DNA of 64,000 nt from contig NZ_MSJR01000001.1 of the NCBI RefSeq assembly GCF_002078605.1, forward strand, positions 186,001 to 250,000, given 5' to 3'. This DNA is from Salegentibacter sediminis. GTDB lineage: Bacteria; Bacteroidota; Bacteroidia; Flavobacteriales; Flavobacteriaceae. The translations under genes were made by a program, and so were the position numbers. The notes beneath the pieces are model-generated. The model worked only from the letters and a program-made list of their open reading frames with translations. It was not told where the DNA came from and did not search any database. Below, piece by piece: positions 3,425 to 16,655 of the stretch (the stretch's first letter is position 1; every line of letters begins with the position of its first letter).

Positions 3425-3501
3425 GGGGGATTAGCTCAGCTGGCTAGAGCGTTTGGCTGGCAGCCAAAAGGTCATCGGTTCGACTCCGATATTCTCCACC
3501 A
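3425..3501 (+). tRNA. tRNA-Ala (anticodon GGC)
   Basis: The cloverleaf folds by eye. The acceptor stem GGGGGAT pairs with ATTCTCC and includes the G3:U70 wobble pair that is the alanine identity element. The D arm begins TAGCTCAG. The anticodon stem TTTGG/CCAAA closes a seven-base loop with anticodon GGC. The T arm has GGTTCGACTCC. The terminal CCA is encoded. A strong terminator follows immediately, so this is a single-gene transcript. Confidence 0.96.
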
Positions 3502-13466: not shown

Positions 13467-14075
13467 ATGGCTTTCGAATTACCGAAACTAAAGTATGCAT
13501 TTGATGCATTAGAACCTCATATAGATGCCAGGACTATGGAAATTCACCATGGGAAGCACCATGCAGGTTACACAAATAAACTTAACGACGCTATAAAAGG
13601 CACCGACCTTGAAGGAAAAACTATAGAGAATATCCTTAAAAACCTGGATATGTCTAAAACAGCCATTAGAAATAATGGTGGTGGTTTCTACAACCATAGT
13701 TTATTCTGGGAGATCATGTCTCCTGATGGAGGCGGGAAACCCGAAGGTGAACTTGCTTCTGCTATAGATTCTGCTTTTGGTTCTTTTGAAGCTTTTAAAG
13801 ATGAATTCTCTAAGGCAGCGGCTGGCCAGTTTGGCTCTGGTTGGGCTTGGTTGTGTGTTCATCCTGGAGGGAAAGTTGAGATTTGCTCTACTGCAAACCA
13901 GGATAATCCTCTAATGCCTGAAAAAGGTTGTGGGGGAACTCCAATCCTTGGTCTTGATGTTTGGGAACATGCTTATTACTTAAACTATCAAAACCGTCGT
14001 CCAGATTATATTAATGCTTTCTTTAATGTTATTAACTGGAAAGAAGTTGCTAGCAGATATGCAAAAGAAAAATAG
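13467..14075 (+). CDS. sodA: Superoxide dismutase, Mn/Fe type
   Basis: A 202-residue Mn/Fe superoxide dismutase without a signal peptide, so cytoplasmic. The four metal ligands are visible: His27 (MEIHHGKHH), His77 (YNHSLFW), Asp164 and His168 (LDVWEHAYY). The outer-sphere glutamine lies in TANQDNPLM (Gln145), the position used by manganese-type enzymes, and the following [16 protein letters not shown] resembles E. coli SodA; the metal could still be either. It converts superoxide to hydrogen peroxide and oxygen. The gene stands alone between a divergent helicase gene and a terminator. Confidence 0.93.
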
Positions 14076-14095: not shown

Positions 14096-14123
14096 AAAGG
14101 CCGCCCATTGGGTGGCTTTTTTT
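14096..14123 (+). terminator. Terminator of the superoxide dismutase gene
   Basis: The arms AAAGGCCGCCC and GGGTGGCTTTT pair over 11 positions, two of them G-U, around a three-base loop and run into seven T, 20 bp after the stop. Confidence 0.88.
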
Positions 14124-14150
14124 ATGATCTTTAATTGAATTTTAGGCAAT

Positions 14151-14240
14151 AAAAAAAGGTGGGTCGTTTTAAGATCCACCTTTCTTTGCCCCAAATCTAC
14201 CATGAACTTAACCTACTTATGTTATGGTCTTACCAAGATA
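14151..14240 (-). ncRNA. Tandem repeat unit 1, candidate small RNA
   Basis: This is one of three near-identical units in a 680-bp gene-free stretch. Read leftward it has a TATCTTGG box (14240-14233, one mismatch to TAnnTTTG), a conserved block of about 45 bases that can fold as ACCATAAC/GTTcATGGT with one bulged base, the linker AGATTTGGGGC, and a hairpin GGTGG/CCACC ending in seven T. In this copy the hairpin differs from the other two in its loop and upper stem. Order and ends suit a minus-strand RNA of about 75-80 nt. The alternative is a repeated bidirectional terminator element. Confidence 0.5.
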
Positions 14241-14365
14241 AGGAGAAAGTAAAGCTCTGGAAAACTTTTTAGATGAAATACAAAAAAATTAGTCAATAGG
14301 TATTTTGGAAAAAGTAATGTAAGAGAGGGATTATTTTTTGTTCCAAAACCTGTAAAATTGAACAT

Positions 14366-14451
14366 AAAAAAAGGCGGATTTTTCATCCACCTTTTTTTGC
14401 CCCAAATCTACCATGAACTTAACCTACTTATGTTATGGTATAGCTAATATA
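14366..14451 (-). ncRNA. Tandem repeat unit 2, candidate small RNA
   Basis: Identical to unit 3 from the conserved ACCATAAC start through the terminator, but its upstream box reads TATATTAG (14451-14444), two mismatches to the -7 consensus, and the next bases differ from units 1 and 3. The terminator hairpin AAAAAAAGGTGGAT/ATCCGCCTTTTTTT keeps a G-U pair when read on the minus strand, whereas the plus strand would have a C-A mismatch there. This favours minus-strand transcription. The spacer to unit 1 is not repeated. Confidence 0.5.
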
Positions 14452-14602
14452 AAACAGTTTTTACTTCCAGCGAGTACTTTTAGCCCAACCACTTAAATAT
14501 TTGTTGAAATCCTTTTTCAGAAAAGGTTTTGTAGGAAATTACTTATATTTTAATGCAGCCAATACCCATTTATAAACAGGAAATTCCCTGGTTAAAAAGC
14601 AT

Positions 14603-14688
14603 AAAAAAAGGCGGATTTTTCATCCACCTTTTTTTGCCCCAAATCTACCATGAACTTAACCTACTTATGTTATGGTCTTACCAATGTA
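14603..14688 (-). ncRNA. Tandem repeat unit 3, candidate small RNA
   Basis: The unit nearest the PurF-like gene. Its upstream box reads TACATTGG (14688-14681), followed by TAAGACCATAAC as in unit 1. The body and terminator match unit 2. Because the PurF-like gene ends at 14757 and is also read leftward, this unit's hairpin may additionally end that transcript; no other terminator is seen there. The stretch from 14076 to 14756 holds only these three units and the sod terminator. Confidence 0.5.
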
Positions 14689-14756
14689 TGCAGGAAAATC
14701 CCGGGAAAAAAATATTTTAGACGAAAGGCATAATTAATTGATAAACAGCTAATTTG

Positions 14757-16655
14757 TTAGTATGCTCTGTCTTTATTTCCTTCAAAAAAGTTGATGAAAG
14801 CCCTGTTTACTACCCTGTTTCCGCCAAAGGTGGGGTAATCTCCAGTAAAATACCAATCCCCCAGATTCTTGGGGCAGGCTTTATGCAGGTTGTCTACAGA
14901 TTGATAGATCACTTTTAGCTTTGCCTTAATGGTAGGTTCACTAATCAATTCAGCGATTTTATCTGAAATTTGTTCATCGGTGAAAGGTTCATAGATTTCT
15001 TTTACAAAGTTTTTTACCTCATGATCTTCCAAATCTACCTGCTCCTTACATTTTTCATAAACCTCTTCAACAATTTGGTATTGGTTGTTATCTTTTAACA
15101 ATTCTAAGGCAGCCCGAAAAGCCACGAGATCTTCCAGCCTGGCCATATCAATTCCGTAACAATCGGGGTAACGAATCTGTGGGGCCGAAGAGACAACAAC
15201 AATTTGTTTGGGATTTAAACGATCCAGCATGGTAATAATGCTTTTCTTCAGGGTTGTGCCCCTCACAATACTATCGTCTATAATCACCAAGCTGTCTTCC
15301 GGTTTTACAACTCCGTAGGTTACGTCATAAACGTGAGCAACCAGATCATCACGGCTGCTGTCTTCGGTAATAAAAGTTCGAAGCTTGGCATCTTTAATCG
15401 CGATTTTTTCCGTTCTAAGGCGATGGGCAAGTATTTCCTGAAGCCTGGCATCGGTAAGATTTTCTTTTTCGGCCAGGATAGCCTCGTTTTTCTGTTTGTT
15501 CAATTCATCCTGGGCTGCTTCAACCATCCCGTAGAAGGAGGTTTCAGCCGTGTTTGGAATAAAAGAAAAAACAGTATTTATGGTGTCGTGCTTTATAGAT
15601 TTCAGAACCTCAGGCATTAATAAACGCCCAAGCATTTTACGTTCTTTATAGATTTCGGCATCGCTTCCGCGGGAAAAATAAATGCGTTCAAAAGAACAGG
15701 CTTTTCGCTCCAGTGGTTCCAGTATTTGCTTTATGGAAACTGTACCGTCCTTCTTGGTAATAATAGCGTGGCCGGGATCGAGTTCCCTCACTTCTTCGTA
15801 ATCTACGTTAAAAGCGGTTTGAATTACAGGTCGTTCAGAGGCCACTACCACTACTTCCTCATCTTTATAATAATAGGCCGGTCTTATCCCTGAAGGATCT
15901 CTTAATACAAAAGAATCGCCATGCCCCAGTAAGCCTGCCATAGCATAACCGCCATCCCAGTTTTTGGAAGATTTTCTCAATATTTTTGCAACATTAAGCT
16001 TTTCAGCAATTATAGGCGAAGCTTCTACTTTGGAAAAACCTTCCTTTTTTAATTTTTTATATAATTTCTGAACTTCAGAATCAAGAAAATGCCCGATTTT
16101 TTCCATTACCGTAACGGTATCAGCTCTTTCCTTAGGATGCTGCCCCAGGTCCACCAGGTTGTTGAAAAGCTGGTTTACATTGGTCATATTAAAATTCCCG
16201 GCTACAATAAGATTACGATGCATCCAGTTATTCTGCCTAAGGAAAGGATGAACATTTTCAATACTGTTCTTCCCGAAGGTTCCATAACGTACGTGTCCTA
16301 GGTAAACCTCTCCTATATATGGTATATTTTTTTTCTGAAGAGCGACATCATCGGCATATTCGGGGTTCTCTTTGATCTCAAAGTTGATCCGGTCGTTTAT
16401 TTGCTCAAAAATATCCTGAATGGGCTGTGCCGCATTAGAGCGTACCCGGCTTATATACCTATCTCCCGGCTTTGTATTTAATTTAATGCTGGCAAAACCG
16501 GCGCCGTCCTGGCCTCGGTTGTGTTGCTTTTCCATTAATAAATACATCTTATTTATTCCGTAAAAAGCCGTACCGTACTTTTCCTTGTAATATTCAAGCG
16601 GCTTTAAAAGGCGTACCTGGGCAATTCCGCATTCGTGTTTTATGGCATCACTCAT
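14757..16655 (-). CDS. Long PurF-like amidophosphoribosyltransferase
   Basis: A 632-residue protein with an N-terminal class II glutamine amidotransferase domain and a C-terminal phosphoribosyltransferase domain. Cys9 (HECGIAQ) would be the nucleophile after removal of an eight-residue propeptide; HNRGQDGAG and GHVRYGT follow as in PurF. The PRPP loop VIIDDSIVRGTT is at about 457-468. It would make 5-phosphoribosylamine from PRPP and glutamine, the first step of purine synthesis. It is about 130 residues longer than standard PurF, with extra helical segments around 380-420 and at the C-terminus. PurN is encoded three genes upstream in the same direction, which supports a purine role. Confidence 0.85.
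   Translation of the reverse strand: MSDAIKHECGIAQVRLLKPLEYYKEKYGTAFYGINKMYLLMEKQHNRGQDGAGFASIKLNTKPGDRYISRVRSNAAQPIQDIFEQINDRINFEIKENPEYADDVALQKKNIPYIGEVYLGHVRYGTFGKNSIENVHPFLRQNNWMHRNLIVAGNFNMTNVNQLFNNLVDLGQHPKERADTVTVMEKIGHFLDSEVQKLYKKLKKEGFSKVEASPIIAEKLNVAKILRKSSKNWDGGYAMAGLLGHGDSFVLRDPSGIRPAYYYKDEEVVVVASERPVIQTAFNVDYEEVRELDPGHAIITKKDGTVSIKQILEPLERKACSFERIYFSRGSDAEIYKERKMLGRLLMPEVLKSIKHDTINTVFSFIPNTAETSFYGMVEAAQDELNKQKNEAILAEKENLTDARLQEILAHRLRTEKIAIKDAKLRTFITEDSSRDDLVAHVYDVTYGVVKPEDSLVIIDDSIVRGTTLKKSIITMLDRLNPKQIVVVSSAPQIRYPDCYGIDMARLEDLVAFRAALELLKDNNQYQIVEEVYEKCKEQVDLEDHEVKNFVKEIYEPFTDEQISDKIAELISEPTIKAKLKVIYQSVDNLHKACPKNLGDWYFTGDYPTFGGNRVVNRAFINFFEGNKDRAY

Follow-up and report, generated by a model that had tools for sequence, protein, structure and literature searches.

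Three tandem units in an array downstream of a PurF-like gene of Salegentibacter sediminis probably belong to a multicopy, Hfq-independent family of small RNAs (sRNAs), each the product of an independent gene, that repress the translation of a lipoprotein with a CAP domain (PF00188). The predicted gene anatomy, strand, conservation, complementarity and co-change at one target position all emerged from the comparison of relatives. The RNA is covered by no Rfam family despite matches in 213 of 249 sampled Flavobacteriaceae genomes. The CAP lipoprotein is a candidate target that is new here and, if the proposal is true, the sRNA would be the first regulator of this widespread protein. The sRNA and the mRNA would make up a compact pair that is open to testing and for which nature offers co-variants, in bacteria that have no recognisable Hfq and generally lack Shine-Dalgarno initiation.

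Anatomy and strand of the units

A repeat search of the window (the whole 64-kb stretch of DNA that was analysed) showed three 89-nt copies at positions 14152-14240, 14363-14451 and 14600-14688, with identities of 80%, 100% and 94%, respectively, to the middle copy, which was the reference. Exactly three copies were found by a genome search of the whole 3.26-Mb, 22-contig assembly. The initial annotation had described near-identical tandem units with unrelated spacers in a gene-free gap between sod and a PurF-like gene, and this observation was confirmed: the three copies are 80-100% identical to the middle one, the two genes flank the array (Table 1), and the repeat search joined no spacer sequence to the units. 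The wobble pairs that it named for units 1, 2 and 3 were as described on inspection by eye.

On the minus strand, each unit consists of a TTnnnCTAAAA element, 26 nt, a -7 box of the type TAnnTTnG, a ACCAUAACAUAAGUAGGUUAAGUUCAUGGU hairpin, a AGAUUUGGGGC linker, and a terminator hairpin with a T run. The TTnnnCTAAAA element starts 37 nt before the -7 box in all three units of the window. In the predicted fold, the loop of the 5' hairpin is UAAGUAGGUUAAG and the unpaired linker after the hairpin is UAGAUUUGGGGC, and the predicted RNA length is about 75 nt per unit.

Table 1. Coordinates of the sRNA units, their putative promoter elements and the flanking genes in the window.
Feature	Position	Strand	Evidence
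Unit 1 of the sRNA: 5' hairpin, loop, linker, terminator	14151..14228	-	Repeat family, genome search, fold, sequence
Unit 1 -7 box, TATCTTGG	14233..14240	-	Sequence; box in place in 126/151 units
Unit 1 upstream element, TTCATCTAAAA, 37 nt before the -7 box	14267..14277	-	Sequence; column frequencies
Unit 2 of the sRNA	14363..14439	-	Repeat family, genome search, fold, sequence
Unit 2 -7 box, TATATTAG	14444..14451	-	Sequence; 151-unit comparison
Unit 2 upstream element, TTGGGCTAAAA, 37 nt before the -7 box	14478..14488	-	Sequence; column frequencies
Unit 3 of the sRNA	14600..14676	-	Repeat family, genome search, fold, sequence
Unit 3 -7 box, TACATTGG	14681..14688	-	Sequence; 151-unit comparison
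Unit 3 upstream element, TTCGTCTAAAA, 37 nt before the -7 box	14715..14725	-	Sequence; column frequencies
PurF-like amidotransferase gene, conserved upstream neighbour of the array	14757..16655	-	Pfam GATase_6 and GATase_7
Fe/Mn superoxide dismutase gene, convergent neighbour; membership in the system not claimed	13467..14075	+	Gene call, family search

The minus-strand folds of units 1, 2 and 3 contain the 5' hairpin and the terminator hairpin, with energies of -23.0, -23.0 and -19.9 kcal/mol and z values of -4.1, -4.1 and -2.3, respectively; the z values of the plus-strand folds are -4.1, -4.1 and -3.5. Since both strands fold, the strand is not settled by folding. The TAnnTT(G/A)G box that had been proposed for the minus strand is present in the three units as TATCTTGG, TATATTAG and TACATTGG, and 126 of 151 units have a TAnnTTNG box where it is expected, whereas a window of equal width further upstream has one in 4 of 151, an asymmetry that points to the minus strand. 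These 151 units are 148 from purF loci (the best 80 of at least 594) and the three of the window; five more, in which no T run was detected, were left out. The remaining 25 units mostly have a TAnnTTTA or similar box. In the box-bearing units, the upstream element is marked by a T at -37 (84%) and -36 (80%), a C at -32 (73%) and an A at -30 (75%). The PM2 promoter of PMC7366714 was also considered, and dropped.

Every one of the 251 distinct units has a terminator hairpin below -5 kcal/mol, and 117 different strings occur among the stems; each unit was folded alone, hence the pairs of these stems are canonical by construction. The 5' stem is nearly invariant, its first pair being A-U in 36, G-U in 3 and G-C in 1 of 40 distinct hairpins (one fully compensatory), and its fifth pair is broken in 5 of the 40. 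Neither helix was recovered by RNAalifold on a 105-row MAFFT alignment, in which the terminators are visibly out of register; the result was a 3-pair structure. The model built on this alignment (R1) is mainly a sequence profile. As to the covariation in both stems that had been suggested as a check, the terminator stems vary yet fold and the 5' stem barely varies. The units appear to have their own promoter and intrinsic terminator, as expected of trans-acting base-pairing sRNAs, and the comparative data support the interpretation of the initial annotation that they are self-contained minus-strand sRNA genes with a predicted exposed TAAGTAGG and GGGGC.

Distribution of the units among relatives

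The PurF-like protein was searched in the contigs of relatives and the best 80 loci of at least 594 were studied. Of these best 80 loci, 66 have units that follow purF and share its strand, with one to five units per locus, while no unit passed the blastn filter in the other 14. The spacing between successive units at these loci was 170-270 nt in 69 of 82 cases. The purF loci with no recognisable unit (L009, L018, L020, L024, L052, L061, L065 and L076-L082) come from Psychroflexus, Aequorivita viscosa, Myroides, Lutibacter, Polaribacter, Tenacibaculum and one MAG.

Model R1 matched 213 of 249 Flavobacteriaceae genomes, from 174 of 202 genera, with up to seven matches per genome, and in some genomes (e.g. 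G005, G132 and G205) an extra copy lies on another contig or far away. In a sample of the phylum, R1 matched 28 of 296 genomes, 26 of them in Flavobacteriaceae and two, weakly, outside; in a sample of the order, it matched 26 of 146 genomes, 24 in Flavobacteriaceae and two weakly.

The last copy of the array differs in 16 purF loci (L044, L048-L051, L056-L060, L063, L064, L068-L070 and L073), where it has its own conserved promoter block, CAATACCAGTAnTTT, and a GGGA linker instead of GGGG. In L073, the CAATACCAGTAnTTT block is also found before the penultimate copy. These sequence features suggest that the last copy with a GGGA linker is a separately regulated paralogue.

Comparison with known RNAs

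No Rfam family matched the units at threshold, either in a gathering scan of the window, where the only match was a tRNA gene at positions 3425-3498, or in an E<=10 scan of positions 14100-14760. The flavobacterial RNA motif Flavo-1 (RF01705), to which the initial annotation had thought the units might be compared, was matched in neither scan. The RNA of the window is likewise described neither by sequence nor by place in the available parts of the open-access literature searched (including PMC9723704, PMC11697453, PMC7366714, PMC9331221 and PMC5395568).

The RNA resembles FopS of Bacteroides (BTncRNA_FopS, RF04319), which is, according to PMC11697453, a multicopy RNA with paralogous copies of about 65-70 nt and an intrinsic terminator that pairs near the start codons of outer-membrane protein mRNAs and is reported to act on SusC mRNAs by start-codon pairing. 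It is not a member of this family by score or by structure. The best FopS covariance score was 24.7 bits (E 0.2), against a gathering threshold of 56, and the 5' end is predicted to fold here into a hairpin instead of the unstructured seed of FopS. FopS is described in that source with a single-stranded 5' seed, with intergenic, antisense and 3' UTR copies, and with mainly SusC targets, whereas the RNA studied here has a 5' hairpin loop followed by a linker, its array is linked to purF and its candidate target is a CAP lipoprotein.

Rfp18 of Flavobacterium psychrophilum (PMC9723704) is similar in being widely conserved, in its case in Flavobacterium, and in affecting exported proteins. However, it is said to pair through a third stem-loop with metalloprotease mRNAs, while the RNA of the window is predicted to fold into two stem-loops; compared by description only, the third stem-loop and the targets given in that text do not fit the RNA of the window. 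The RNA of the window may nevertheless correspond to Rfp18 itself, to one of the Rfp1-89 transcripts of that study, or to a transcript listed for F. psychrophilum or F. columnare.

Qrr and OmrA/OmrB are present in several near-identical copies with different promoters, base-pair at the translation start and work with Hfq. The RNA studied here would share with them the multiple copies and the pairing at the translation start, unlike them in that a Pfam search found no Hfq in 31 of 31 relatives, in a search whose control matched in 5 of 14 known genomes.

Complementarity to the leaders of CAP-lipoprotein genes

Seven regions holding weak R1 matches (L123-L129) were fetched. Four weak matches (E 1e-7 to 8e-4), from three Flavobacterium-group genomes, lie antisense across the start codons of CAP genes (twice in L123, and in L124 and L127, with Pfam confirmation for L124), and the weak matches of L125 and L128 are not at CAP genes. 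In a search of 30 Flavobacterium genomes, the four weakest R1 matches (G681, G685, G696 and G111) lie just before CAP genes. The CAP gene of L123, L124 and L127, present in two copies in L123, is near a gene that resembles pdxH.

The CAP genes of 40 relatives showed that a complement of the sRNA also precedes the start codon in other genera, e.g. ACCAAATCTAAATTTACCTACTT-ATG. The two-block pattern CAAATCTN{0,10}CTACTWATG had 31 matches in 249 genomes, against 22 for the reversed control (counted by eye). For 14 of these 31 matches, the last three bases are the start codon of a CAP lipoprotein; 12 of these agree with the coordinates of CAP matches, and two (L200 and L225) were assigned by sequence likeness only. 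The other 17 are at the chance level given by the 22 control matches in the same genomes, and we therefore claim no other target from them.

A CAP protein query matched in 149 of 199 genomes (G000-G198). Leaders were read at 30 loci and at 80 further places from the list of CAP matches, with places already covered and some paralogues left out; among the matches listed, 109 of 110 leaders had a usable start, and L238, with a plainly wrong internal ATG, was kept in the counts. The leaders fall into types by clade, with the linker block and CCTACTT, the linker block and TTAACC, GCCCCAAATTTGATGCCCCC, or ACCTACTTAC alone, and these clade-specific leaders all use the same segments of the sRNA, namely the loop and the linker. 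By simple string classes, 24 of the 109 leaders lack all of the exact blocks. The typical Flavobacterium complement starts with TTTGCCCC and continues through ATCTAC or TTTAC in the direction of CTACTA (30 loci, three without a block), and complementarity in this genus can be long, with -46.9 kcal/mol in L340. In the four duplexes that were drawn, pairing reaches or nearly reaches the start codon.

The duplex energies showed that the mean over the 109 CAP leaders was -22.3 kcal/mol with the real sRNA, while 100 dinucleotide-shuffled sRNAs gave a mean of -14.5 kcal/mol (sd 1.1, minimum -18.1) over the same leaders. As a control, the leaders of 578 ORFs with 180 codons or more from the purF loci had a mean of -14.1 kcal/mol. 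The CAP means were -23.1 kcal/mol for the first 67 leaders of the list, -21.0 for the other 42, this 67/42 split being an arbitrary cut of the list, and -38.6 for the 30 of Flavobacterium. The 5% level of the control was passed by 48 of 67, 24 of 42 and 27 of 30 leaders, respectively, and the 1% level by 19 of 67, 5 of 42 and 27 of 30; the leaders that fell short of the 5% level were 19 of 67, 18 of 42 and 3 of 30 among the 139 scored. Seven CAP leaders from three genomes with no R1 match (four from G044, one from G103 and two from G154; one of the seven is also among the 109) gave -11.9 to -17.3 kcal/mol, with control fractions of 0.18-0.71 and no pairing signal. Among the 14 strongest control leaders, seven are purF leaders, mostly with a GCCCC/GGGGC terminator.

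These results give the targeting of mRNAs, which had been only an idea in the initial annotation, a conserved candidate at the start codons of CAP lipoproteins. Predicted complementarity to the translation start of a distant mRNA, a mark of this class of sRNAs, is conserved across the family and weak in the genus of the window.

Co-change and co-occurrence of the sRNA and the CAP gene

For the 28 leaders with CTACT within 16 nt of the ATG, the loop was taken from the same genome as the leader. Genomes with the loop AAGUAGG (TAAGTAGG) had CUACUU in 14 leaders and CUACUA in 1, the base after CTACT in the DNA being T and A, respectively, whereas genomes with the loop UAGUAGG (TTAGTAGG) had CUACU(A/G) in 11 leaders and CUACUU in 2 (A or G, and T, in the DNA). 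One TTAGTAGG genome has an extra ATAGTAGG copy. Two further leaders (G118 and G039, both with T), for which no sRNA was read, are outside these within-genome counts; without genome matching, the counts were 16:1 and 2:11 (Fisher p 1.5e-5). The CTACT string is absent from 92 of the 109 and 17 of the 30 leaders, which are outside the co-change counts. A swap of one base in the loop showed that other genera prefer the TAAG loop by 54:20 (35 equal) and Flavobacterium the TTAG loop by 22:7 (1 equal). This preference is mixed, as 20 of the 109 leaders of other genera favour the Flavobacterium loop and 7 of the 30 Flavobacterium leaders favour the other. Because related genomes are not independent, the co-change is most plausibly a single event at the level of the clade, affecting both the loop and the leader.

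The CAP gene was present in 146 of 172 genomes with the RNA, against 3 of 27 without it (G000-G198: both 146, RNA only 26, CAP only 3, neither 24; Fisher p 4e-14), a co-occurrence that is inflated by ancestry and genome reduction. The 26 RNA-only genomes are those in which one query protein gave no CAP match.

Candidate targets in the genome and genus of the window

The candidate in the genome of the window is a CAP gene in L169 (G000:C2), with its start at locus position 1345. Its leader gave -26.5 kcal/mol, a value reached by 1.0% of the 578 control leaders. Among the 12 CAP leaders from this genus, of which this is one, the 5% level is passed by 4 and the 1% level by none, with a mean of -19.5 kcal/mol, and most have no perfect run of 8 complementary bases. 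With 4 of 12 leaders at the 5% level, the case for this target is weak here but strong in other genera, and the CAP gene as a target is less secure in the genus of the window than in the others.

The loop complement showed no excess in this genome (5 matches off the array against 16 for the control) and the linker complement little (44 against 36). A perfect 13-nt complement of the loop lies in the early codons of a gene named by eye as a GH3-like glucosidase (L133, G000:C21:37060-37072); this candidate was set aside because the real pattern had fewer matches than its control, a frequency that fits chance. In the window itself, the best leader among 60 mechanical ORFs of at least 120 codons had -22.9 kcal/mol and 4 passed the 5% level, which is about the chance level, so that no target is claimed inside the window.

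Proposed mechanism and alternative explanations

We infer that the units are transcribed, that the RNA pairs in the cell and represses its target, and that an activator and a signal are involved. Each unit would be an independent gene for a trans-acting sRNA of about 75 nt, transcribed from the minus strand from a -7 promoter of the Bacteroidota type, probably with the help of a factor bound at TTYRTCTAAAA, and transcription would end at the intrinsic terminator. The 5' hairpin would present the loop UAAGUAGGUUAAG, followed by the unpaired linker UAGAUUUGGGGC, and in the family at large both would base-pair across the short 5' leader and the start codon in the mRNA of a CAP lipoprotein encoded elsewhere. 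The duplex over the leader and the AUG would block initiation and lower the synthesis of the CAP lipoprotein. The block of initiation is proposed because the drawn duplexes reach or nearly reach the AUG and because Bacteroidota generally have no Shine-Dalgarno sequences, as stated for Bacteroidetes in PMC3155529.

The tandem, near-identical units in a gene-free gap, the folding of both strands and the copies found elsewhere in some genomes could also be those of a mobile repeat or another DNA element and not of an RNA gene. We consider this very improbable, since the three copies are at one place here and units occupy the same place in 66 of 80 loci (the best of at least 594), the promoter box is on one strand, the terminator stems vary but fold, and the loop changes together with the CAP leader. 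The initial annotation had named scattered mobile repeats with no conserved box or terminator as the finding that would speak against sRNA genes; apart from the distant extra copy of some genomes, this was not seen, given the units downstream of purF in 66 of 80 loci (the best of at least 594), the fixed -7 box and the terminator in 251 of 251 units. Still less probable is a micropeptide encoded from the AUG in the 3' arm of the hairpin. This AUG is followed by a G in 251 of 251 distinct units, often reading MVDLGQK, but the next conserved block is in another frame in 63 of the 251 and the lengths of the reading frames scatter, and micropeptide coding was rejected on these grounds.

For the sRNA genes themselves, we give even weight to the possibility that the RNA regulates many mRNAs, among which CAP is just the best-conserved target and may not be the main one for the genus of the window. 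The almost invariant loop and linker and a copy number of up to 7 would agree with this, as would the 26 genomes with the RNA and no detected CAP gene, the weak CAP pairing in this genus, and a few other start-codon matches at exported proteins (L205, L209, L218, L226 and L227). However, the 17 two-block matches outside CAP genes are at chance (reversed control 22), and the matches in this genome are 5 against 16 for the loop complement and 44 against 36 for the linker complement. Pairing could also activate or protect the CAP mRNA, or the CAP leader could titrate the sRNA, as complementarity leaves the direction of control unfixed and can be long in Flavobacterium (-46.9 kcal/mol in L340); this is unlikely, the four drawn duplexes being at or near the start codon, which suggests a block of initiation. 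Repression of the CAP lipoprotein is the reading that we retain. A broader form of it, held tentatively and at a little under even weight, is that the sRNA was kept across most Flavobacteriaceae with one principal mRNA partner, whose leader was rebuilt several times (to match the loop and the linker, the linker twice or the loop alone, or as an almost full-length antisense in Flavobacterium) and yet remained complementary to the same pair of exposed segments, in cells with no recognisable Hfq, and that the sRNA and the CAP gene may share a transcription factor acting at TTYRTC-type elements.

A large lipoprotein resembling a pectate lyase by eye is preceded by CAAATCTTAACACCTACTT-ATG in L226 and L227, from two species of one genus, and this sequence makes it a possible second target limited to that genus.

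Boxes of the type T[CT][AG]TCGAT were found upstream of the CAP gene in 64 of 139 cases (L228-L367, in the 130 nt that precede the start), against 7 of 577 controls. They resemble the TTYRTCTAAAA element of the sRNA, and a CAP promoter often has two or three ATCGAT-like boxes, TTCATCGATTAAAA ... TTTAATCGATTTTAACA. From this likeness, the CAP-promoter boxes and the sRNA element may bind the same regulator, possibly, as a guess, of the LytTR type. A shared transcription factor, if true, would place the surface CAP lipoprotein under the control of a feed-forward circuit.
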